Source: an uncultured Eubacteriales bacterium
GTDB taxonomy: Bacteria; Bacillota; Clostridia; Oscillospirales; Oscillospiraceae
Direction of reading: 5' to 3'
Assembly: GCA_949293985.1 (NCBI GenBank)
Contig: CASFFN010000012.1
Span: forward strand, 1-64,000
Length of the DNA: 64,000 nucleotides
Shown here: positions 23,540 through 60,521 of the stretch, piece after piece
How positions within the stretch are numbered: the first letter of the stretch is position 1
Layout of the letters: each line of letters opens with the position of its first letter
The notes under the pieces: generated by a model
The model's input: only the letters and a program-made list of their open reading frames with translations
What the model was told of the DNA's origin: nothing
Database searches by the model: none
Translations under genes and position numbers: made by a program

Positions 23540-24068
23540 ATGACGAAAAGGGAATATACAAATCTAAGGAACCTCTGAATCAACCGTCTGCGGCTGGAAA
23601 GCTTATCTTTTTCCCCATCCATGCAGAATGAAAAACAGGAAATACATACAGTATTCCGCTGTTTTCCATTCTTTTGTCTGAGGAGCTTCCCTAAAGATTT
23701 TTCTGCCGGAAATCAAAGCAATGATAGCGGAGGGAAAGAGCCATAATGAAAAAATGAGAGTCGCTGCGGAGTTGCAGCTCCACAGCGACCAGGGCTTTCA
23801 ATATACCTCACACGGATATTTTAAGCTAACGCAATCTTACGGGATAACGCCGTCAATGTCAAGGAAGGGAAATCCTTATGACAACGCAATGGCAGAAAAA
23901 TTTTTCTCCATTCTGAAAACAGAGTGCATCTATCGACATACGCCTTGCATAGATGGAACGGCGAGGAGTATCGTGACTGCTGGGAATGTTTGGGTGAGCA
24001 TCACATGGACGCCGGAGAGAATTACTGCCTTAGACCTATTCACAGGTTTGAAGTTGAAGAAATCGTAG
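23540..24068 (+). pseudogene. Internally deleted IS3-family transposase with inserted MITE
   Basis: The ATG at 23540 starts MTKREYTNL, which stops at once where the MITE (23568-23690) is inserted. After the MITE an orfA-like segment (EIKAMIAEGKSH) continues, then the frame jumps straight to the C-terminal part of an orfB integrase core. That part reads LHSDQGFQYTS, then SMSRKGNPYDNAMAEKFFSILK with the last catalytic Glu-bearing region. The middle of both proteins is missing, so it cannot be active. After about 23940 the sequence changes to something unrelated. Confidence 0.8.
23568..23690. mobile_element. MITE-like inverted-repeat element, copy B
   Basis: It starts GGAACCTCTGAATCAACCGTC and ends AGGAGCTTCC. 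The stretch from about 23605 to 23680 is nearly identical to copy A in the grpE-dnaK gap. Part of the right arm is deleted compared with copy A. It interrupts the IS3-type remnant. Confidence 0.75.
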
Positions 24069-24148
24069 AAGAACTGGAAGAAAATAGTCCCGAGTGGGAC
24101 AAAGCAGTGGAAATCACCGACTATGAAGTAAAGAACTGGGAACCATAA
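23924..24148 (+). pseudogene. Chimeric open frame at the end of the IS remnant
   Basis: A 74-codon frame starts inside the transposase remnant and continues into an acidic segment (EVEEIVEELEENSPEW) ending at 24148. From about residue 8 on (LHRWNGEEYRDCWECLG) it no longer matches an IS3 transposase. I do not recognise the second part; it looks like the 3' end of a gene whose start was replaced by the IS remnant. Expression is doubtful. Confidence 0.35.
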
Positions 24149-24255
24149 AATAACTTAAGTGTCGGTGAGAAAAGAACCGGGGAGCTACTGCCCCCCGGAG
24201 AATCCCTCTCAAACTTATACAAAACAGAAGTCGGAAAATAAAAATGTAGTTGCTA

Positions 24256-24284
24256 TTGACAGCCGATATGATGTACGCTATAAT
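24256..24284 (+). promoter_or_regulatory. Promoter/operator of toxin-antitoxin copy 1
   Basis: TTGACA (24256-24261), 17 nt and TATAAT (24279-24284) match the consensus. The -10 box is flanked on both sides by GTACGC, giving a direct repeat that is a likely operator for the antitoxin. Confidence 0.85.
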
Positions 24285-24306
24285 GTACGCGTAGGAGGTG
24301 ATTGAA

Positions 24307-24537
24307 GTGCTGAATACCAACATTACAAACTTCCGCAAAAATATCTTCGGTATGCTGGAGCAGACCATAAAGTACAATGAGCCTGTCAACATCAGCACCA
24401 AGGATGGCAACGCCGTTGTTATCAGCGAGGCTGATTACAACAGCCTGGTGGAAAGCCTTTACCTGCGGACGGAAATCGTCGAGGGTCTGGATACCCCCCT
24501 CAGCGAGTGCCTGCCGGAAAGCGAGGTTTCCTGGTAG
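24307..24537 (+). CDS. Antitoxin, Phd/YefM family (copy 1, intact)
   Basis: A GTG start 7 nt after AGGAGGTG gives 76 residues. The N-terminal DNA-binding part (NITNFRKNIFGMLEQTIKYN) and the segment VNISTKDGNAVVISEADYNSL are typical of YefM-like antitoxins. The C-terminal tail that would wrap the toxin (TEIVEGLDTPLSECLPESEV) is complete. It neutralises the adjacent toxin and represses the operon. It lies outside the ICE, to the left of the att repeat. Confidence 0.9.
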   Translation: MLNTNITNFRKNIFGMLEQTIKYNEPVNISTKDGNAVVISEADYNSLVESLYLRTEIVEGLDTPLSECLPESEVSW

Positions 24538-24800
24538 TGTATTCCATCGTTTACACCAAAGCTGCTGCGGCTGCGATTCCAAAGCTAAAGGCGGCGAAGC
24601 AGGACCAGAAAGCAAAGGCCTTAATTGATATTCTCCGGGATAATCCTTATCAGACGCCTCCGCCTTATGAAAAACTGGTGGGAGATCTTCAAGGAGCTTA
24701 CTCCCGACGAATTAACATTAAGCACCGTCTGGTCTATCAAGTCCTGGAGGCTGAGAAAACAGTTAAAATTCTAAGTCTTTGGACACATTACGAGTTTTAA
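24537..24800 (+). CDS. Toxin, Txe/YoeB family (copy 1)
   Basis: A GTG start overlapping the antitoxin stop (TAGTG) gives 87 residues; an alternative ATG at 24507 would overlap the antitoxin further. The YoeB-type core is YEKLVGDLQGAYSRRINIKH and the end is LWTHYEF. These contain the Glu, Arg and C-terminal His expected of this ribosome-dependent mRNA endonuclease. The pair is nearly identical to the copy at 59,087-59,587. Confidence 0.9.
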   Translation: MYSIVYTKAAAAAIPKLKAAKQDQKAKALIDILRDNPYQTPPPYEKLVGDLQGAYSRRINIKHRLVYQVLEAEKTVKILSLWTHYEF

Positions 24801-24849
24801 TCTGCCCAGGCGCAAAAAACCGGGGAGCTGCTGCTTCCCGGAAATTCTC

Positions 24850-24970
24850 TTGACGAACTATGAATAATTTATTATTTTATAGTTTTTGCAGAGGTCGATG
24901 ACCTGTAAATCAGAGCGCTGCCAACTGTCCTGACCTCTTCGGCAATTGAAATCCTCTTGAAAATGGGTGT
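24850..24970 (+). ncRNA. Shortened copy of the right-end structured RNA
   Basis: A weakened promoter (TTGACG, 17 nt, TATTTT, 24850-24878) is followed by TGCAGAGGTCGATGACC, then directly by the 3' part (AGAGCGCTGCCAACTGTCC). The full copy at 59,672-60,251 has about 0.45 kb between these parts. The closing stem survives, AGAGGTC pairing with GACCTCT. It is probably a deletion derivative; function unlikely. Confidence 0.5.
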
Positions 24971-25014
24971 AGACCTTCCCGGACACAGAGGTGTCTGTGT
25001 ATCCGGGAAGGTCT
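24971..25014. repeat. Conserved hairpin next to the left att site
   Basis: The long stem AGACCTTCCCGGACACAGA pairs with TCTGTG-TA-TCCGGGAAGGTCT. The equivalent hairpin beside tRNA-Glu (60,210-60,252) differs in sequence but keeps pairing through two compensatory changes, so the fold is selected. Confidence 0.75.
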
Positions 25015-25019
25015 ATTCA

Positions 25020-25047
25020 TGGTGACCCGTACGGGAATCGAACCCAT
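25020..25047. repeat. Left attachment repeat (tRNA-Glu 3' fragment)
   Basis: These 28 bp are identical to the 3' end of tRNA-Glu (60,258-60,285), from the encoded CCA through GAATCGAACCCAT. After that they diverge. The integrase gene starts its stop codon 37 bp to the right. The two copies delimit a 35,238-bp element. Homology to the right end continues leftwards beyond this repeat, which a single insertion would not give. Confidence 0.93.
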
Positions 25048-25083: not shown

Positions 25084-26148
25084 TTATTCTTTCTCATCGC
25101 CATTTTCGTTGCCATTTATGCCTTTTTGAGGGTCAAAAAAGCTCTTAAATTGGCTGGACTGCTCAGCGATATCTTGCTCTGAGAGTTTGGTGTAAATGCG
25201 GCGCATCGTGTAGATATTTGACCATCCTCCTATTCGCATGGTCATCTCCTCCGATAGCCCCAGGTGATAAGCTAAACTCGCAAAGGATCTTCTCAGACCG
25301 TGGACGCCAACTTCCGGAAGGTGCAAGGCTCTACAGAGCTTGTTAATCTGAGAGTAGAGTGTGGTCGGGGAAGTTGTCACAACCAATCCGGATTTTCGTG
25401 ATTCCAGCATCAATGCTGTCCTTAAAGGGGGGATAATCGGAATGGTTCGCCGTGATGAGCGGTTTTTGTTCTCTTCCTTCCGCACCAGCTGATTGCCTTC
25501 GCCGATTACTGCTGCTCCACGAATATGTATTATATCCCGTTCCAGGCTGATGTCCTCCCAGTGCAGAGCAAGAATTTCAGAGCGGCGCAGACTTGACAAG
25601 GCCAGGAGCGCCGGGATTTCAAAAGTTTTCCCTTTAATTGCTTCTACAAAAATAGGAATCTGCTCCGGAGTAAGGAATGCCCCATCTTTTTCGACTACTT
25701 GTGGTAGGCGCACAGACACACTATGTTCCGTTTCCTCTGAAATGACAGAGGAAAGCAGGCCCCATGCGTTCTTTAGCGTTTTCGCTGAGCACTGTTTTGC
25801 TTCGGCGTTGACAATTTTTTGCCATTGTGCGGCAGATATATCAGATATTCTGGTTTTCATAACCGCAGAAAAGCGGGTCCTCTGGATGGCCCGGTAGCCG
25901 TGGATTGTCGATGGCGATAAAATGTTTTCACGATTTGCGATATAATCATCTATCGCATCGGCAACAGTTTTGGAACAGCGCTTATTATATTCCCGCTGTC
26001 TTGCCAGTTTGATACCTGCTTTAACCGCCATAGCTTCAGCTACGGCTTCCTTCTCCGTCTGACGGGTAATGGATACATCCTGACTGCCTATTCTCACACG
26101 GCAGTACCAAGACCCTGATGGTAACCGCCGAGCCTTTGGTATTTTCAT
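25084..26148 (-). CDS. int: Tyrosine recombinase (ICE integrase)
   Basis: The 354-residue protein has an N-terminal arm-binding domain (SGSWYCRVRIGSQDVSITRQ), a SAM-like core-binding domain and the catalytic domain. Active-site residues are visible: Arg in LSSLRRSEILALHWEDI, then HGLRRSFASLAY, GGW and the Tyr in RRIYTKLSEQ. It joins the circular element to the tRNA-Glu 3' end. It sits directly inside the left att site and points outward, as ICE integrases usually do. No excisionase is obvious. Confidence 0.95.
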   Translation of the reverse strand: MKIPKARRLPSGSWYCRVRIGSQDVSITRQTEKEAVAEAMAVKAGIKLARQREYNKRCSKTVADAIDDYIANRENILSPSTIHGYRAIQRTRFSAVMKTRISDISAAQWQKIVNAEAKQCSAKTLKNAWGLLSSVISEETEHSVSVRLPQVVEKDGAFLTPEQIPIFVEAIKGKTFEIPALLALSSLRRSEILALHWEDISLERDIIHIRGAAVIGEGNQLVRKEENKNRSSRRTIPIIPPLRTALMLESRKSGLVVTTSPTTLYSQINKLCRALHLPEVGVHGLRRSFASLAYHLGLSEEMTMRIGGWSNIYTMRRIYTKLSEQDIAEQSSQFKSFFDPQKGINGNENGDEKE

Positions 26149-31098: not shown

Positions 31099-31131
31099 AA
31101 TATGCAAAAATCTTGAGAAAGGATGATGAAC

Positions 31132-34100
31132 ATGAAACACCGCTTGATGCAGGTACTTTCCCTGGTGCTGGCGTTGGTGCTGCTCTTTGGATGCATCCCC
31201 ACCGCTTTTGCGGAAACCCCGGAAATCCCTGTAGAAACGGAACCGCCCTACACAGGGGCGGAAACAGACACGGGACAGGTTCCTCCGGTTACAGAGGAAA
31301 CCACGCCCCCCACGGAGCCGGAGGAAACCGAACCTCCGGCAGAAACAACGGCTCCCACAGAGCCGCAGGAGCCTCTGGCAACGGAAGCCCCCTCCGAAAA
31401 TACGGAGCCGACAGTGCCGGAAGAAAGCACTCCGACAGATGAGGAGGAAGTCCCCGGCTATGAGCTGGAAGTGGGAGATGTGTTGGTTCCCACCACCGTG
31501 GGAAATTCCCAGATAGTTCCCATGACCCTGCCGCCAGATACGGATCTGACTATTGTAAAAAAGGATTATTACACGCCTTTCCCCAATGGTGTGACATTCT
31601 ATTTTTACTCAGATAACCAGCCATATCCTCTGGGACGGTACACCGCCGCCTCTGCAACCATCTTCCACCTGTCAGATGGGCGGGTGGGCTATTGTATGCA
31701 CCCCATGCTGTCAGGCGGCGGTGACTATGAAGCCACCGACCCCGGAGATAGCTACATTGGGGATGACGGCTGGCCAACAGCCATTTATAGCTCCAGTTCC
31801 GGATGGCTGAGCTGGGATTTTGACAGAATCAGCAAGCGAGGAACCTGGCTGGTTATGGCATACGGCGCTCCCAACAACGGAGACACCTCAGACGCCGGCA
31901 TCAAGGCAACTGCCCTGTGCGTCTGGGACATGATTACCGGCCACCGGAATCTGGACGGAACACCCCGGAATGGTGGAGCACCTTTCTATGATGCCCTTAC
32001 CGATTCTGCCATTAAAGCCAAGTATGATGAGCTGCTGGACAAGCTGGCCAATCACGGAAAAATCCCCAGCTTTACTGTTGGCCTCCGTTCTCAGTTGGGC
32101 CCCTCCAGCACCATCACCCTGAAAAAGGACGCCAATACCGGCCTCTACACCGGCTCCGCAACCGACAAGAACGGCGTTTTGGCAAACTTCCATTTCATAT
32201 CCAACATTCAGGGGCTGACCTTCACCAGAAGCGGCAACACCCTGAAGGTGACGGCCACGGAAGCCGCTGCCAAGAAGCTGAATCAGCTGGTGGTGCAGTC
32301 CCGTGGATACGAGTTGGGGGAGGGAACCAAAGCCTGTACCGTTTACCAGGACAAATACAATCCTGGCACCAAGCAGAAACTCATTGCCCTGGACGGTCCT
32401 GTGGACCCGGTTCCCTGTCTGTTCCGTCTGGCCGTTGAGGTGGAGGGCCAGATCCAGGTGAAGAAAACCACCAACACCGGACAGAACCTCTCCGGATGGA
32501 AGTTTGAAATCGTGGACAAAGCCACGAACAAGGTGGTAAAAACCGTTACCACCGATTCCAAGGGCCTGGCCACAGCCACCAATCTTCCTGCCGGGGAGTA
32601 CATCGTCCGGGAAGTGGGAGGCGGTGACGCCTACTGGCAGCTGGACACCTCCGGTCACACGGTAACGGTGGTTGCCGGTCAGACCGCAACTGTCACCGTC
32701 AACAATGTCCACCGGGGCAGAATCGTGGTACAGAAGAATGCCGTCAACGGCAGTCCGGAAGGCTGGAAGTTTGAAATCTGGCAGGGCAACACCCTGGTGG
32801 AAACCCTTACTACCGGCGGGGATGGCCGGGCAGTCAGTAAGTACCTGCTTCCCGGAAACTACAAGGTTAAGGAACTCCATGACCGGGACGGAACCTACTG
32901 GGAATACGATGTAAAGGTGGAGCAGAACGCCACCGTCACAGCAGGTCACGACACCACCGTGACCTATACCAATACCCAGTATGGTCTGCTTCAGATTGTC
33001 AAAACCATGGCGGACGGCACCTCCCCCGCCGGATGGGTGTTCCGGGTAACGGATTCCACCGGTCAGGAGGTCCCCGGCTCTCCCTTTACCACAGGTGAGG
33101 ACGGCGTGATTCTCTCCGGCAAGCTGGCTCCCGGAACCTATACGGTGGAGGAAATCATCCCGGAGGATTCCCTGTACTTCTGCGAAAGCGAGAATCCTCA
33201 GACGGTGGTGGTGACTGCCGGTCAGACTGCCGAGGTACAATTCACCAATGCCCTCCGGCCCGGTAAAATCACCGTCCAGAAGGTTGACACCCTGGGCAAT
33301 CCCCTGTCCGGTGCAGTATTCCTCCTGGAATGGAGTACGGATGGGAAGATTTGGAATCCCATTGTCTATTCTGAAACCATCCAGGCCGGTGGATGCAGCA
33401 ATCCCAATGTGGTGGACGGCTGCATTACCACAGGAGCCGACGGCCTGGCCAGCTGGGAGAATCTCCACCCCGGTCTTTATTACCGGGTAACGGAAGTGAA
33501 AGCCCCGGGCGGCTATCAGCTGCTGACGGAGCCGGTCTTTACCGGAAAGCTCCCCATTGAGGACCTCACCATTTCCCTTCGGGTGGTAAACGCTCCCATC
33601 TTCACCCTGCCCCAGACTGGCGGCATGGGTTTTGACGGCTTTACCGCCGGTATCATTCTCTCTCTGAGTGCCTGTCTGGGCGCTCTCTTTTTTATGCTCT
33701 CTGCCGGGAAGAAGCCCCGGCTTTTTTCATATCAAAAACAAGAAAGGAAAGGTTACAAAATGAAGAAGTTTTTTGCCCTGATGATGACCCTGGTGCTGCT
33801 TCTCAGCGGTATCCCCACGGCCTTGGCAGCAGATGCGGCTGACGCCACCATTGACACGGACGCCTCCTTCTCTCTGACGATTTTTAAGTATGATTGGACC
33901 AACGCTGTCAAGGACGGTGTCTGGAACGAGGATTCCTTCATCTCCACCGGCTGGCGTGAAAGCTATGTGGAAGATGTGCTGGGCAATGCTGTCCGGCAGG
34001 GCGATGCCGATGGCAGCACCGGCAACGACCTGGGCAACGGCCAGAACGCCAACGGCTATGCTCTGAAAGGCGTGGAATTTACCACTCTGAAGGTAGCCGA

Positions 34101-35907
34101 CATTGTTACCTTTACGGAATCCGCCAATGACCAGCACCCCGACTACAACCTGACCCAGGTACTGTACGGCTTCCACAAGGTAAAGGCCGCTGACCTGCTG
34201 GCCGCCATTGGCCTTAATGACGGTGCGGGCCGTTACACCAATGCGGACAACACCGACAAGCTCAGCAAGGACAATTATTATTACACCTCTGAAACCCTGA
34301 ACAAGGCCCTGGCTTCCGCCCTGGCCGCCAACGCCACCGCCGTCAAGGACGCTCTGGAAACCTACATGGCCGCACAGGATGGTGCCATTGTCATGGCCAA
34401 GACCGATGAGAACGGCAAGACCATTCAGCGGAACCTGCCTGTGGGTCTGTATCTGTGCGTGGAAACCGCCGTTCCCGAAATGGTGACTTCCACCACCAAT
34501 CCCTTCTTTGTCAGCCTGCCCATGACCACCGTTTCCGGAGACGACAACTCCTCCTCTCCCGAGGGCGGCCACGCCTGGAATTACGATGTGGTGGTTTACC
34601 CCAAGAACGAAACCGGCATCCCCACCCTGGAAAAGACCGTCCGGGAAGCCAAGAAGGACACCGGCAAGAATGAAGGAACCAGCACCATTACCGACGGCTT
34701 TGCCCACACCGCTACCGGCTCCTCCGGTGATGTGATGGAGTACCAGGTGATTTCCACCCTGCCCACCATCACCTCTCAGGCCACCGCTCTGACGGTATAC
34801 AACTTCTATGACACCCTTTGTGAGGGTCTGAGCTACAACAAGTCCCTGCGGGATGTGAAGATTGAATTCTTCACGGACAAGGACTGCACCGACAAGGTTG
34901 CCTCCTGGGATATGGACAGCGGCAAGTTTACCGTCACCTACTCCAGCGATGACCGGCACATGACTGTGGATGTGACTGCCGCAGGTCTGGCTGAAATCAA
35001 CGGCGATACGGAAAATGTCAACGGCCAGCTCTATGCCGGTTACTCCAACTACACCCTCCGGCTCACCTACACGGCCGCCATCGATTCTGACGCCTCCGTG
35101 GTGTTCGGTGACAACGGCAACGACAACCAGGTGGTTCTCACCTGGAAGCGCACTTCCACCGAATACTATGACACCCTGATTGATGACTGCCATGTGTTTA
35201 CCTTCGGCATTGACCTGACCAAGCTGTTTTCCGATGTGGATTCTGAGACCGCTGAGGAGCAGAGGATGTTCGACCATGTGAAGTTCAAGATCTGGAACGA
35301 AACCGACGGCTACTGGGTGACTGCCACCCGGAACGAGGAAGAAGGTGTCTACTATGTCACCGGTCATGTGACCGATGAAACCGACGCCACCATCTTCCAC
35401 CCTGTAACCATGGGTGAGGCTCTGGGCCAGATTATGGTTAAGGGCTGTGAGGATGACGAGTACATCATCACGGAGGTAGAAACCGCCAACGGCTACACCC
35501 TCCTGAAGGACGATATTCATGTGGTGATTTCCACCCAGATTGACAACAGCCGTCCCTGTGACATTTACTCCCGGGATGTGCTGGGTGTTCTCCAGAACGA
35601 CCCCCGCTATGCCTTTGACGGCGGTCTGGATTTGCGTCTGGCCAACATTCCCCAGAAGCAGCTGGCCCACGACTATCTGACCGCTTCCGCAACGGTGGAC
35701 GGCAATGCCGTGACCATGCTGGAGGACAACGGCTCTGCCAATGCAGAAGCGCCTCTCACCGTGGTGAACACCCCCGGCTTTGACCTGCCCCAGACCGGCG
35801 GTTACGGCACCATGATTTTCACCGTCACCGGTATTGTGGTGATGGCGCTTGCCGCCGGAGTAACCCTCTGGCTCCTCTTTGGCAAGCGCAAGAAGGAAAA
35901 CGCCTGA
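31132..35907 (+). CDS. Fused reading frame: pilus tip adhesin plus backbone pilin
   Basis: One frame without a stop covers two complete sortase substrates. The start at 31132 is preferred (GAAAGG 10 nt upstream). Part 1 (residues 1-876) has a signal peptide, a Pro/Thr/Glu stalk and a thioester-like domain (GRVGYCMHPML near residue 186). Four CnaB/SpaA domains follow (such as GWKFEIVDKATNKVV), with the E-box TEVKAPGGYQLL, then LPQTGG, a membrane helix and a basic tail. Instead of a stop, the frame continues through KKPRLFSYQKQERKGYK into the signal peptide of part 2. Whether this is made as one chain is unknown. Confidence 0.8.
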   Translation: MKHRLMQVLSLVLALVLLFGCIPTAFAETPEIPVETEPPYTGAETDTGQVPPVTEETTPPTEPEETEPPAETTAPTEPQEPLATEAPSENTEPTVPEESTPTDEEEVPGYELEVGDVLVPTTVGNSQIVPMTLPPDTDLTIVKKDYYTPFPNGVTFYFYSDNQPYPLGRYTAASATIFHLSDGRVGYCMHPMLSGGGDYEATDPGDSYIGDDGWPTAIYSSSSGWLSWDFDRISKRGTWLVMAYGAPNNGDTSDAGIKATALCVWDMITGHRNLDGTPRNGGAPFYDALTDSAIKAKYDELLDKLANHGKIPSFTVGLRSQLGPSSTITLKKDANTGLYTGSATDKNGVLANFHFISNIQGLTFTRSGNTLKVTATEAAAKKLNQLVVQSRGYELGEGTKACTVYQDKYNPGTKQKLIALDGPVDPVPCLFRLAVEVEGQIQVKKTTNTGQNLSGWKFEIVDKATNKVVKTVTTDSKGLATATNLPAGEYIVREVGGGDAYWQLDTSGHTVTVVAGQTATVTVNNVHRGRIVVQKNAVNGSPEGWKFEIWQGNTLVETLTTGGDGRAVSKYLLPGNYKVKELHDRDGTYWEYDVKVEQNATVTAGHDTTVTYTNTQYGLLQIVKTMADGTSPAGWVFRVTDSTGQEVPGSPFTTGEDGVILSGKLAPGTYTVEEIIPEDSLYFCESENPQTVVVTAGQTAEVQFTNALRPGKITVQKVDTLGNPLSGAVFLLEWSTDGKIWNPIVYSETIQAGGCSNPNVVDGCITTGADGLASWENLHPGLYYRVTEVKAPGGYQLLTEPVFTGKLPIEDLTISLRVVNAPIFTLPQTGGMGFDGFTAGIILSLSACLGALFFMLSAGKKPRLFSYQKQERKGYKMKKFFALMMTLVLLLSGIPTALAADAADATIDTDASFSLTIFKYDWTNAVKDGVWNEDSFISTGWRESYVEDVLGNAVRQGDADGSTGNDLGNGQNANGYALKGVEFTTLKVADIVTFTESANDQHPDYNLTQVLYGFHKVKAADLLAAIGLNDGAGRYTNADNTDKLSKDNYYYTSETLNKALASALAANATAVKDALETYMAAQDGAIVMAKTDENGKTIQRNLPVGLYLCVETAVPEMVTSTTNPFFVSLPMTTVSGDDNSSSPEGGHAWNYDVVVYPKNETGIPTLEKTVREAKKDTGKNEGTSTITDGFAHTATGSSGDVMEYQVISTLPTITSQATALTVYNFYDTLCEGLSYNKSLRDVKIEFFTDKDCTDKVASWDMDSGKFTVTYSSDDRHMTVDVTAAGLAEINGDTENVNGQLYAGYSNYTLRLTYTAAIDSDASVVFGDNGNDNQVVLTWKRTSTEYYDTLIDDCHVFTFGIDLTKLFSDVDSETAEEQRMFDHVKFKIWNETDGYWVTATRNEEEGVYYVTGHVTDETDATIFHPVTMGEALGQIMVKGCEDDEYIITEVETANGYTLLKDDIHVVISTQIDNSRPCDIYSRDVLGVLQNDPRYAFDGGLDLRLANIPQKQLAHDYLTASATVDGNAVTMLEDNGSANAEAPLTVVNTPGFDLPQTGGYGTMIFTVTGIVVMALAAGVTLWLLFGKRKKENA
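33703..33727 (+). terminator. Intrinsic terminator lying inside the fused pilin frame
   Basis: GCCGGG, loop, CCCGGC and six T form a normal terminator 33 nt before the second pilin ATG. It marks the expected gene border and may let only part of the transcripts reach the second pilin. Confidence 0.65.
33760..35907 (+). CDS. Backbone pilin (second module of the fused frame)
   Basis: The ATG at 33760 has its own ribosome site (GAAAGGAAAGG) and starts a clear signal peptide, MKKFFALMMTLVLLLSGIP, so it can be translated independently as 715 residues. The class C pilin motif WNYDVVVYPKN supplies the Lys used for polymerisation. An E-box (ITEVETANGYTLL) stabilises the internal isopeptide bond, and LPQTGG near residue 677, a membrane helix and GKRKKENA complete the sorting signal. 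This is a typical shaft pilin polymerised by class C sortase. Confidence 0.88.
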   Translation: MKKFFALMMTLVLLLSGIPTALAADAADATIDTDASFSLTIFKYDWTNAVKDGVWNEDSFISTGWRESYVEDVLGNAVRQGDADGSTGNDLGNGQNANGYALKGVEFTTLKVADIVTFTESANDQHPDYNLTQVLYGFHKVKAADLLAAIGLNDGAGRYTNADNTDKLSKDNYYYTSETLNKALASALAANATAVKDALETYMAAQDGAIVMAKTDENGKTIQRNLPVGLYLCVETAVPEMVTSTTNPFFVSLPMTTVSGDDNSSSPEGGHAWNYDVVVYPKNETGIPTLEKTVREAKKDTGKNEGTSTITDGFAHTATGSSGDVMEYQVISTLPTITSQATALTVYNFYDTLCEGLSYNKSLRDVKIEFFTDKDCTDKVASWDMDSGKFTVTYSSDDRHMTVDVTAAGLAEINGDTENVNGQLYAGYSNYTLRLTYTAAIDSDASVVFGDNGNDNQVVLTWKRTSTEYYDTLIDDCHVFTFGIDLTKLFSDVDSETAEEQRMFDHVKFKIWNETDGYWVTATRNEEEGVYYVTGHVTDETDATIFHPVTMGEALGQIMVKGCEDDEYIITEVETANGYTLLKDDIHVVISTQIDNSRPCDIYSRDVLGVLQNDPRYAFDGGLDLRLANIPQKQLAHDYLTASATVDGNAVTMLEDNGSANAEAPLTVVNTPGFDLPQTGGYGTMIFTVTGIVVMALAAGVTLWLLFGKRKKENA

Positions 35908-35962
35908 CCTCAGCAAGTCCCGGGGAGAATCCCTCCCCGGGACACCATAGAAGGAGATTCCC

Positions 35963-36826
35963 GTGAAGAAGAAAGTTGCGTTAGGTGCAGCGGTAGTCAC
36001 CTTTTTTCTTGCCCTCTTAATCACCCTGTATCCGCTTATCAGCACCGCTTACAACCGGCAGCACCAGTCCCAGATTCACCTTCAGCACCAGGAGCAAGTG
36101 GAACAGGCAGATAACCAGGCTTTGGAAGCTGCATGGGAGCTGGCAGAGGTTTACAACGCCGCTTTGGTGCCGGGGGTGCAGGATCTGGAGCGGTTCACCC
36201 CGGAGCAGCTGGAAGCAGCTGCAAAAGGGTACAAAGACCTCCTGGACATTGCCGGGGACGGCATTATGTGCTATGTCACCATCCCCAAGCTGAAAACTTG
36301 TCTGCCGGTATACCACGGCACCTCCGACACCGTTCTGGAGCTGGGCCTGGGGCATTTACTGGGAACCAGCCTGCCCATCGGCGGCAGCAGCACCCACAGT
36401 GTTATCACCGGCCACAGCGGCCTGGCTTCCCAGCGGCTGCTGTCCGACCTGGACCAACTGGAACCGGGCGATGTGTTTTATATCGAGGTGCTGGACAAGA
36501 CCCTGGCCTATGAGGTTGACCAAGTGAAGACCGTTTTGCCCTATGAAACGGAAGATTTGCGGATTGTCCCGGAGCGGGACTACTGCACCCTGGTGACCTG
36601 CACCCCTTTCGGAGTGAATACCCACCGGCTCCTGGTAAGAGGAACCCGGATACCCTATGAGGAACCCTCCCCCGATGCAGAAACCGCTCCCACAGAGCCT
36701 GTAACCTCTACCTGGGAGCAGGAATACCGCAACGGTATTCTCATTGGCCTGGGCATTGTGGGGCTTCTGGCAATCATTACTGTAATTATTTGGCGTATTT
36801 GGAGGTGCAAGCATGAAAAATCGTAA
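35963..36826 (+). CDS. srtC: Class C sortase 1
   Basis: The 287-residue protein has membrane helices at both ends, as usual for pilus sortases. The catalytic His is in VITGHSGLA and the Cys in TLVTCTPFGVNTHRLLVRG, which also carries the Arg. It links pilin subunits through LPQTG and the pilin-motif Lys. It follows the pilin frame after 55 nt that contain an 11-bp hairpin (35,914-35,942). Its 3' end overlaps the next sortase gene by 14 nt. Confidence 0.93.
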   Translation: MKKKVALGAAVVTFFLALLITLYPLISTAYNRQHQSQIHLQHQEQVEQADNQALEAAWELAEVYNAALVPGVQDLERFTPEQLEAAAKGYKDLLDIAGDGIMCYVTIPKLKTCLPVYHGTSDTVLELGLGHLLGTSLPIGGSSTHSVITGHSGLASQRLLSDLDQLEPGDVFYIEVLDKTLAYEVDQVKTVLPYETEDLRIVPERDYCTLVTCTPFGVNTHRLLVRGTRIPYEEPSPDAETAPTEPVTSTWEQEYRNGILIGLGIVGLLAIITVIIWRIWRCKHEKS

Positions 36827-37544
36827 GCTGCTCTTTATTGCGTTGTTTGTCCTGTTTTTAATAGGGCTGGCAATCTTCTTGTATCCTGTGATTCAACAAG
36901 CCCGGATTGACAAACAAAGCAGACAAGCCATCCAGCAATTTATGGCTGACCGTCCCGAGGAAACGCCTATGCGGCCTCAGCAGAATATTGAAGAAATCAT
37001 CCACCAGCTTCCCTATGCTGACCTGTGGCAGGATGCCAAGATGTATAACCTGCACATCCTTTCCTCCCAGCGAGAGACCCTGAACAACTCCCTGGCCTAT
37101 ATCCATCCCCAGCTGACCCTGGCAGATTACGGACTGGATTCAGAGGTTTTTGCAGTACTCACTATCCCAAAACTGGACCTGGAAATGCCTATCTACCTGG
37201 GCGCAAGCAGCAGCAACCTTTCCAAGGGAGCCGCTATACTGGGCCAGACCAGTTTGCCCATAGGTCGAGGGAATTCCAACTGTGTCATCGCAGGACACCG
37301 AGGCTGGAATGGGGCAGATTTCTTCCGATACATTACAGAACTGGAACCTGGGGACGAGGTTATCATCACAAACCTTTGGGAAACCATCCGCTATACCGTT
37401 ACGGAAACCAAAATCATCGAACCCACGGATGTGGAGAGTATCTATGTCCAGCCTGTGCGGGACATGGTGACCCTTATGACCTGTCACCCCTTTGCCAGCG
37501 GCGGCAGGTATCGCTACCTGGTCTATTGCGACCGGGAAAACTGA
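36813..37544 (+). CDS. srtC: Class C sortase 2
   Basis: The 243-residue protein has an N-terminal membrane helix and the sortase core. It has His in VIAGHRGWN, Cys in VTLMTCHPFASGGRYRYLVY, and the Arg in the same segment. It lacks the C-terminal helix of sortase 1. Two sortases beside two LPQTG substrates is the standard layout of Gram-positive pilus loci; one may polymerise the shaft and the other attach the tip. Which does which is not known. Confidence 0.92.
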   Translation: MKNRKLLFIALFVLFLIGLAIFLYPVIQQARIDKQSRQAIQQFMADRPEETPMRPQQNIEEIIHQLPYADLWQDAKMYNLHILSSQRETLNNSLAYIHPQLTLADYGLDSEVFAVLTIPKLDLEMPIYLGASSSNLSKGAAILGQTSLPIGRGNSNCVIAGHRGWNGADFFRYITELEPGDEVIITNLWETIRYTVTETKIIEPTDVESIYVQPVRDMVTLMTCHPFASGGRYRYLVYCDREN

Positions 37545-58664: not shown

Positions 58665-59035
58665 TGGTATTTATCCTTTCTCTTACATATGTTTTTAGCA
58701 GTAAAGTATAATCCTCCGGCAAATAATTGGTTACTAATTATAACAAATTTTTCTTAATTATACAAGATAAGCCGCTCTTTATCTGCTTTTGAAGCCACTG
58801 CCACTAATCTCTTCAGAGTCTTCTTGGAATCTGTAAGTTGGAATTTCGAACAAACTCCCTTTTTAAGTATTTTATCAGCTGTCTATATATTTGTCGATAG
58901 TAAATACTTCAATTCCACAAAATATTTCTTCTAATTTCCATGTATAATATAAAAGCACGCAAAGCACAGTTCGAGACTTATCATTTATTACCCATACTAA
59001 AAATATGGAGCCGCTGTATCCCATTAACAAGCCTA
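58665..59035. other. AT-rich non-coding gap
   Basis: No credible gene is seen. It contains the start region of the minus-strand cargo gene and ends where sequence similarity to the left toxin-antitoxin copy begins (about 59,034). Confidence 0.6.
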
Positions 59036-59064
59036 TTGACAGCTGGAGCGAAGTACGCTATAAT
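59036..59064 (+). promoter_or_regulatory. Promoter/operator of toxin-antitoxin copy 2
   Basis: TTGACA (59036-59041), 17 nt and TATAAT (59059-59064), with GTACGC on both sides of the -10 box as in copy 1. Confidence 0.85.
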
Positions 59065-59086
59065 GTACGCACAGGAGGTGATTAAA

Positions 59087-59266
59087 GTGCTGAATACCAA
59101 TATCACTAACTTCCGCAAAAACATCTACGGTATGCTGGAGCAGACGATAAAGTACAATGAGCCTGTCAACATCAGCACCAAGGATGGCAACGCCGTTGTT
59201 ATCAGCGAGGCTGATTACAACAGCCTGGTGGAAAGCCTTTACCTGAGTGCGGACGGAAATCGTTGA
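59087..59266 (+). pseudogene. Frameshifted YefM-type antitoxin (copy 2)
   Basis: It is identical to copy 1 over almost all of the first 55 codons. A 4-bp insertion at 59,246-59,249 then shifts the frame. The product ends after LYLSADGNR, 59 residues, and lacks the C-terminal toxin-binding tail. The lost tail is still readable in the shifted frame up to the original stop, so the change is recent. Confidence 0.88.
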
Positions 59267-59320
59267 GGGCCTGAATACCCCCCTCAGCGAATGCCTGCCG
59301 GAAAGTGAGGTCTCCTGGTA

Positions 59321-59587
59321 GTGTTGTATTCCATCGTTTACACCAAAGCTGCTGCGGCGGCGATTCCAAAGCTGAAGGCAGCAAAACTGGACCAGAAAGC
59401 AAAAGCCCTGATTGATATTCTCCGGGATAATCCCTATCAGACGCCACCACCTTATGAAAAGCTGGTAGGCGATCTTCAAGGAGCTTACTCCCGCCGAATT
59501 AACATTAAGCACCGTCTGGTCTACCAAGTATTGGAGGCCGAGAAAGCAGTTAAAATTCTAAGTCTTTGGACACATTACGAATTTTAA
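59321..59587 (+). CDS. Toxin, Txe/YoeB family (copy 2)
   Basis: A GTG start gives 88 residues, nearly identical to copy 1 (Gln/Leu, Thr/Ala differences and one extra N-terminal residue). The catalytic core YSRRINIKHRLVYQV and the end LWTHYEF are kept. Its own antitoxin is broken and now ends 54 nt upstream, so translational coupling is lost too. Neutralisation would have to come from the intact copy at 24,307. Confidence 0.88.
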   Translation: MLYSIVYTKAAAAAIPKLKAAKLDQKAKALIDILRDNPYQTPPPYEKLVGDLQGAYSRRINIKHRLVYQVLEAEKAVKILSLWTHYEF

Positions 59588-59636
59588 GCTGCTCAGGCAC
59601 AAAAAACCGGGGAGCTGCTGCTCCCCGGAGAATCCC

Positions 59637-59665
59637 TTGACAAACTATGAATAATTTATTATTAT
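59637..59665 (+). promoter_or_regulatory. Promoter of the right-end structured RNA
   Basis: TTGACA (59637-59642), exactly 17 nt and TATTAT (59660-59665). There is no open frame of note behind it, so it points to a non-coding transcript. Confidence 0.8.
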
Positions 59666-59671
59666 AGTTTT

Positions 59672-60251
59672 TGCAGAGGTCGATGACCCGTAAAAAGGTT
59701 CAAACCTCTCAGTTGGAGCTGAGAGGTTTGAAAACGGCTTCTGTTTGCAACTTGACAAATTCATCTCTTCTTCCAAAAGACAAATCCTTAGCCACAAACA
59801 TCATACCAAATTCGGATGATGTTGTCAAGAGGATTTGTCTGAGATGACATAGCCGAAATTTCTCATCGCCTGGTTATGGATGGGGCTGATTCATGGTGTA
59901 TCCCCTATGAACCATCCCGTAGGAAGCATCCCGAAGGAGAGTGATTGCACACGCTCTGGATAAGCGTCACAGGGTCATTGACCGTGCATTCCTGCCTCCG
60001 TGCACGCCAGGGTGGGCGTCCAACTCGTACGGACGAGGAGCAGAACTGAGCGCTGCCGTGTTGGCAGACCTCTTAGGAGGCCAGCTCAAAGCTGCGAGGA
60101 ATTGACCATAGCTGGTGATAAGCCGCCATGACGAGGAAAATAATAACCTCAGAGCGCTGCCAACTGTCCTGACCTTTTCGGCACTTGAAATCCTCTTGTA
60201 GATGGGTGTAGACCTTCCCGAATACAGAGGCTCTCTGTATTCGGGAAAGTC
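59672..60251 (+). ncRNA. Candidate large structured RNA at the ICE right end
   Basis: About 580 nt without coding capacity follow a consensus promoter and are full of stems. There is a 14-bp perfect hairpin (59,699-59,732) and coaxial stems TCATCTC/GAGATGA and AGACAAATCC/GGATTTGTCT around 59,761-59,847. Further stems are ACGCT/AGCGT, CGTGCA/TGCACG, CTCGT/ACGAG and CTGCC/GGCAG, with a closing stem AGAGGTC (59,675) / GACCTTT (60,171). It ends in a 20-bp hairpin before tRNA-Glu. Size and place recall the large phage/mobile-element RNAs ROOL and GOLLD; identity is untested. Confidence 0.6.
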
Positions 60252-60252
60252 T
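60210..60252. repeat. Long hairpin beside tRNA-Glu
   Basis: A 20-bp stem with one mismatch and a 3-nt loop, AGACCTTCCCGAATACAGAG against its complement. Compared with the copy at 24,971 two base pairs have changed on both sides. It ends 5 nt before the tRNA-Glu CCA. Confidence 0.8.
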
Positions 60253-60257
60253 ATTCA

Positions 60258-60285
60258 TGGTGACCCGTACGGGAATCGAACCCAT
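60258..60285. repeat. Right attachment repeat (3' end of tRNA-Glu)
   Basis: 28 bp identical to 25,020-25,047. As the tRNA is on the minus strand, integration at its 3' end leaves the intact gene here and the loose fragment at the far left. Confidence 0.93.
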
Positions 60286-60332
60286 GTTACCGCCGTGAAA
60301 GGGCGGTGTCTTAACCGCTTGACCAACGGGCC
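60258..60332 (-). tRNA. tRNA-Glu (anticodon TTC), ICE integration target
   Basis: The minus-strand cloverleaf has acceptor GGCCCGT / ACGGGTC, anticodon loop with CTTTCAC giving TTC, T-loop GTTCGATTC and encoded CCA. It follows tRNA-Met with no gap. Its 3' end was rebuilt by the element. Confidence 0.95.
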
Positions 60333-60408
60333 TGGTAGCGGCAATCTGACTTGAACAGATGACATACCGGGTATGAACCGGGTACTCTACCAACTGAGTT
60401 ATGCCGCC
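60333..60408 (-). tRNA. tRNA-Met (anticodon CAT)
   Basis: The minus-strand cloverleaf has acceptor GGCGGCA, anticodon loop TTCATAC giving CAT, T-loop GTTCAAGTC and encoded CCA. The acceptor G1 pairs normally, so it is read as elongator Met; a tRNA-Ile2 with modified CAT cannot be excluded. Confidence 0.92.
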
Positions 60409-60448
60409 ATGTGGTCCGGCGTTAAGATACCGCCGAAACAGCTACCTT

Positions 60449-60477
60449 ATTATAGCCGTATGGCTTTCGTTTGTCAA
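60449..60477 (-). promoter_or_regulatory. Promoter of the Met-Glu tRNA pair
   Basis: On the minus strand TTGACA (60472-60477), 17 nt and TATAAT (60449-60454): full consensus. Confidence 0.93.
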
Positions 60478-60521
60478 GGGTATTTTTTAATTTTTTGCCG
60501 TTTTCCCGCAAATCGTCCGGC

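Follow-up and report, generated by a model that had tools for sequence, protein, structure and literature searches.

A Candidate Locus of Paired Sense and Antisense RNAs Beside the tRNA Target of an Integrative Conjugative Element

Introduction

What kind of locus occupies a non-coding interval at the very end of an integrative element, next to the tRNA gene used as integration target? The question is raised by positions 59637-60258 of a 64,000-nt stretch of DNA from an uncultured Eubacteriales bacterium (contig CASFFN010000012.1, referred to here as the window), an interval flanked by a YefM/YoeB-type toxin-antitoxin pair and by the 3' end of tRNA-Glu. A first-pass annotation made from the sequence alone had proposed a single large and strongly folded non-coding RNA, comparable in size and setting to the ROOL and GOLLD RNAs, and it overlooked a promoter and a terminator on the minus strand. 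As described below, the locus may encode a pair of sense and antisense RNAs outside Rfam 15, with the predicted anatomy of the known counter-transcribed kind.

The Element and Its Integration Site

The location beside a tRNA-Glu att site was confirmed, as the 29 nt of the tRNA 3' end are repeated at 25019-25047, adjoining the integrase gene (Table 1). The genes found between the att repeats are those of an integrative conjugative element and encode ParA, ParB, a SpaA pilin and sortases, a MobP3 relaxase, VirD4 of the CD1115 family, TrbL and TraG. The surface protein encoded in the region 31123-37544, which also holds two sortases, has 1594 aa, is of the SpaA/Gram-positive pilin type and carries an LPXTG anchor. 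Direct repeats of the motif AATGRCRAYRA spaced ~12 bp apart, likely arm-type sites of this integrase family, occur where integrase genes end and on the attR side of an element at tRNA-Ser (25094-25116 of the window, L140:783-816 and L141:11236-11258). Another genome of the set, G314, encodes a protein 92% identical to one of the element's, yet it lacks the RNA locus and its tRNA-Glu site is empty.

A relic of a related element lies to the left of position 25019 and holds the same toxin-antitoxin pair together with a shortened copy of the interval. The relic (23721-25019) contains a fragment of an IS3-type transposase, and its toxin-antitoxin pair is ~90% identical. The shortened copy reported by the first-pass annotation does exist, at 24850-25019, and the segment corresponding to 59691-60151 is missing from it; the antisense RNA and the conserved core described below are therefore absent there.

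Table 1. Features of the RNA locus and its surroundings in the window (positions of the 64,000-nt stretch).
Feature	Position	Strand	Remarks
Shortened copy of the locus, at the end of the tandem relic	24850..25019	+	P+ weaker (9/12)
att core repeat, 29 nt of tRNA-Glu 3' end	25019..25047	+	
Tyrosine integrase of the element	25084..26148	-	Two arm-type repeats at 25094-25104 and 25106-25116
YoeB/ParE-like toxin	59321..59587	+	Directly upstream of the RNA locus; antitoxin in ORF 58940-59266
Second minus-strand terminator	59607..59628	-	Between the RNA locus and the toxin-antitoxin genes
Promoter P+, TTGACA-17-TATTAT	59637..59665	+	11/12 consensus match
Putative sense RNA, ~0.58 kb	59672..60253	+	Predicted from P+
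Putative antisense small RNA, ~105 nt, two hairpins	59690..59795	-	Predicted from promoter and terminator
Intrinsic terminator of the putative antisense RNA	59692..59732	-	14-bp stem 59732-59699, then CCTTTTT
Promoter P-, TTGACA-17-TATGAT, extended -10	59800..59828	-	11/12
Conserved core, AGGGTGGGCGTCCAACnCGTACGGACGAGGA ... GCTGCGAGgAATTGAC ... GTGATAAGCCrCC	60009..60127	+	Candidate RNA or DNA function
att-proximal hairpin	60209..60253	-	Better fit: 3' hairpin of the tRNA-Glu transcript
tRNA-Glu(ttc)	60258..60332	-	Integration target; att core formed by its 3' end
Promoter of the tRNA-Met/tRNA-Glu transcript	60449..60477	-	12/12

Predicted Transcription Units

On the plus strand, the consensus promoter of the first-pass annotation was recovered (P+, Table 1) and the interval indeed contains no likely protein-coding ORF: the longest have 58 aa (plus strand) and 54 aa. 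Nor are the indels that separate the homologues divisible by three in length, and those of 16, 4, 1 and 2 nt in the core alignment argue against coding. A type I toxin peptide was considered and rejected, as the ORFs are of 58 aa or shorter, none is a hydrophobic candidate and the frame is not kept between homologues. A search of 59500-60500 turned up no intrinsic terminator on the plus strand that would define the 3' end of the putative sense RNA. Downstream of the locus there is no rep-like gene, the next feature being the oppositely oriented tRNA-Glu.

On the minus strand, P- and an intrinsic terminator delimit a putative small RNA that would be antisense to roughly nucleotides 20-125 of the P+ transcript. 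Folded as minus strand, 59689-59800 has an MFE of -43.3 (z -5.4), and the 5' hairpin of the small RNA reaches -21.5 kcal/mol (z -3.9) on this strand vs -6.9 (z -0.7) on the plus strand; stability on the minus strand only is evidence for the strand of the small RNA. When 1.4 Mb were scanned in a simple way for promoters and terminators in convergent arrangement, 30 matches appeared, some of which were the RNA locus itself; the convergent layout alone is therefore not very rare.

Folding of the Interval

The large, strongly folded RNA of the first-pass annotation was not borne out. Folding of the whole interval is well above that of shuffled sequence on the plus (z -7.1) and on the minus strand (z -7.8), and these near-equal values pick no strand. 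In sliding windows the excess was confined to three local palindromes (59699-59732, 59778-59840 and 60209-60253); windows inside 59850-60200 gave z of about 0 to -1.6 on both strands, the middle 340 nt behaving as shuffled sequence. The proposed long-range pairing that would close the 5' and 3' ends was rejected, with a probability of 0.02 in the long copy and chance level in the homologues of genome G847 described below; the claim that this closing stem is kept in the shortened copy holds for that copy (pairing probability 0.96-0.99) and fails for the long one. The hairpins other than the terminal one are accounted for by the putative antisense RNA, the two palindromes concerned marking its promoter and terminator. 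The case illustrates a pitfall, since terminators and promoters of neighbouring or opposing transcripts can alone produce the folding score of a whole region.

The terminal hairpin requires separate consideration. The 20-bp palindrome at 60209-60253 is present as annotated, and of the two compensatory changes attributed to the shortened copy the first, from A-T to G-C, is clean, whereas a 2-nt bulge is needed for the other to pair. Among five copies of the hairpin, 11 of the 21 pairs are altered on both sides, and the proportion of paired cells is 96% on the minus (tRNA) strand vs 89% on the plus strand because C.A mismatches of the plus strand are G.U pairs on the minus strand. In related species of the genus tRNA-Glu is immediately followed by a terminator hairpin, which often has a T-run and differs in sequence. 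Given this matching position and the better pairing on the minus strand, the palindrome is best read as the 3' hairpin of the tRNA transcript, probably brought along by the element; a second role at the end of the plus-strand RNA is possible. As a separate observation, the tRNA-Glu loci of the genus (L168-L187) show that almost every species has rebuilt the hairpin after this tRNA with a sequence of its own.

Recurrence and Conservation in the Genus

BLAST searches with the locus returned nothing credible from 794 genomes of the family and order. Among 136 genomes of the genus one further carrier was found, G847, which holds three copies of a 31-nt block (AGGGTGGGCGTCCAACnCGTACGGACGAGGA); 30 of its 31 nt are common to the window and the G847 copies, and further blocks follow. 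The G847 copies belong to units of up to about 585 nt that abut the 3' ends of tRNA-Val(cac), tRNA-Val(gac) and tRNA-Arg(ccg). In G000 and G314 the same tRNA-Val(cac) has a native terminator downstream in place of the RNA unit. The idea of a conserved and apparently non-coding locus beside tRNA genes on mobile DNA is thus supported by the three homologues; what did not survive is that of a single large ornate RNA. The evidence from homologues comprises two genomes and about two independent lineages.

In two of the G847 copies (C4 and C108) the order of features is that of the window, namely P+, minus-strand terminator, antisense body, P-, core, hairpin and tRNA, and this layout is kept although most of the sequence has diverged. 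The spacings are similar in the window locus, C4 and C108, with 34, 28 and 28 nt from P+ to the terminator and 68, 58 and 57 nt from the terminator to P-. P+ of C4 and C108 (TTGACA-17-TAAAAT, 11/12) occupies the same relative place, P- scores 11/12 in all three G847 copies, with an extended -10 in C4 and C108, and the minus-strand terminator of these two has 14 bp and a T6 tail, its stem sequences being different and its pairing kept. The third copy (C104) begins inside the unit and retains P-, the core and the hairpin.

The core is 97-99% identical among the G847 copies and the flanks are clearly less so (Fisher p 1.6e-4 to 2.7e-3). In the window, a nhmmer profile derived solely from the G847 copies matched 60009-60127 (E 9.8e-10) and nothing else. 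When the same copies were used for a covariance model, it chose a different structure and scored the window weakly, the sequence-only nhmmer search performing better. Neither strand of the core gave a significant consensus structure (z -0.75 and -0.56; two lineages). In the window copy, the 3' part of the core lies between the two units of an imperfect direct repeat of 30 nt with 70% identity (60048-60077 and 60152-60181; GAGCGCTGCC...GACCTnTTnGG).

A search of the genus with model R1 gave no further credible member, and weak matches in G658, G177, G023, G122, G850 and G809 were dismissed as chance or coding sequence. Within the sensitivity of the searches, collections of plasmids, phages and viral contigs yielded no homologues; three pattern matches in viral contigs look like chance. 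No relative of the integrase was found in G847, a genome that is 82% complete.

Comparison With Known RNA Systems

ROOL and GOLLD are large non-coding RNAs of phages and prophages, often located near tRNA islands and of unknown function (PMC12286853). The size, mobile-element context and tRNA neighbourhood of the present locus resemble the published cases; it lies near tRNA genes at four loci, although here on an integrative conjugative element, the phage and viral collections being without a match. The covariance-model search that the first-pass annotation had called for returned no match to Rfam 15 at the gathering score and thus no catalogued RNA family, and the ROOL and GOLLD models gave no match even at E up to 10 over 59500-60450, or up to E 5 in one homologue (L207). 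The locus is therefore not a ROOL or GOLLD RNA on this evidence, and the bulk of the interval without folding excess, the lack of a significant consensus structure in the core and of an ornate fold, and the putative antisense RNA that overlaps the locus point the same way. A giant ornate RNA of this type is thus a highly improbable identification.

Counter-transcribed RNAs of plasmids offer a closer parallel. RNAI and RNAII of ColE1 have 108 and about 555 nt and overlap at the 5' end of the sense RNA. They represent an arrangement in which an antisense RNA longer than 100 nt overlaps a non-coding sense RNA (PMC9458437). The RNAs predicted here, of about 105 and 582 nt, are to be compared with those lengths, and the likeness, which concerns the sequence level only, lies in a non-coding sense RNA of ~0.5 kb whose 5' part is covered by an antisense RNA of ~100 nt transcribed convergently. 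The differences are that the present locus has no sequence or Rfam match to ColE1, resides on an integrated element in a Clostridia-type host and has a primer role that is putative. Among the counter-transcribed RNAs of pT181, pSK41 and pIP501 in Gram-positive bacteria are antisense RNAs of 83-87 nt, with two stem-loops in pSK41, and an alternative layout within this group places the antisense promoter midway in a leader of ~320 nt (PMC5703833). A short antisense RNA opposing a long leader is common to these systems and, as predicted, to the locus; however, the plasmid leaders enter a rep gene and carry an attenuator or a ribosome-site hairpin, whereas here neither such a gene nor a plus-strand terminator precedes the tRNA. 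With no sequence or model match, rep gene or attenuator, the locus belongs to neither the ColE1 nor the pT181 family.

Type I toxin-antitoxin loci on mobile DNA, too, pair a longer RNA with an antisense RNA that covers its 5' part, the mRNA leader. The locus differs from them in that its putative sense RNA is without a conserved small hydrophobic ORF.

Proposed Function and Alternatives

We propose that the integrative element carries, at the end next to the tRNA, a control locus made up of a sense and an antisense RNA, a reading to which we give about an even chance. Anatomy, recurrence and conservation support it; from these we infer transcription, pairing, regulation and the role of the core. 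P+ would drive a long RNA of about 0.45-0.6 kb and P- an RNA of about 90-105 nt stopped by the intrinsic terminator. As in counter-transcribed systems, the short RNA would pair with the nascent long RNA, to which it has full complementarity within the first ~120 nt, and limit its completion. The effector would be the conserved core of the 3' half, acting for instance as a primer or as a regulator of the circular form after excision. The process controlled may be priming of circle replication, incompatibility, or transcription across attP after excision, as in the excised circle transcription from P+ would cross attP, run antisense to int and continue in the direction of parA.

An RNA at this locus is likely. 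The core might instead be a DNA site, an accessory arm of attP for the integrase, Xis or a host factor, the promoters being incidental or serving the small RNA only. Its distance of 130-250 bp from the att core and its conservation at element ends beside four tRNA genes would suit such a role, the dyad CGTCC-N9-GGACG may bind a protein, and a 12-nt match (TTTCTCATCGCC) is common to the integrase-side arm (25090) and position 59859. However, the arm motif AATGRCRAYRA, plain where integrase genes end and, in a paralogous element of the same genome, on the attR side, is absent at up to one mismatch from the window locus and the G847 unit (in the locus, one occurrence at two mismatches vs 2.0 expected), and the conserved positions of two promoters and a terminator would need another reason, which makes a DNA site an unlikely explanation. 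It could also be that only the minus-strand RNA of ~105 nt matters, as a trans-acting small RNA, the plus transcript being weak or incidental. The clearest signals (extended -10, terminator and minus-specific hairpin) do belong to the small RNA, but both subfamilies retain P+ at 11/12 and the small RNA does not include the most strongly conserved block, so we judge this quite improbable. Least favoured among the three is ordinary intergenic sequence composed of a tRNA terminator, other terminators and chance promoters: the att-proximal hairpin is by position the tRNA 3' hairpin, and two minus-strand terminators shield the toxin-antitoxin genes, but conservation of the core across divergent copies at four tRNA genes already renders it very unlikely.

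The sense/antisense control reading can be extended to a new family in which the long RNA, with its near-invariant core, would act directly as primer or circle regulator and be restrained by its own antisense RNA. An integrative conjugative element would then use RNA to control copy number or incompatibility as plasmids do, and no Rep protein gene would be linked to the locus. We offer this version tentatively and regard it as rather doubtful. If both RNAs are made, integrative elements of gut-type Clostridia would carry an antisense-controlled non-coding RNA at their tRNA end; such a locus would resemble those of plasmid copy control, yet with no rep gene attached, and copy-number limits, exclusion of relatives and excision sensing by these elements would become testable.

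A link of the RNA locus to the toxin gene was considered and rejected, since relatives of the toxin occur without the RNA. In both subfamilies the genes directly upstream of the RNA locus are those of a toxin-antitoxin system (58940-59587 in the window and L210:435-1252), YefM/YoeB-like in the window and, by eye, RelB/YafQ-like in G847.
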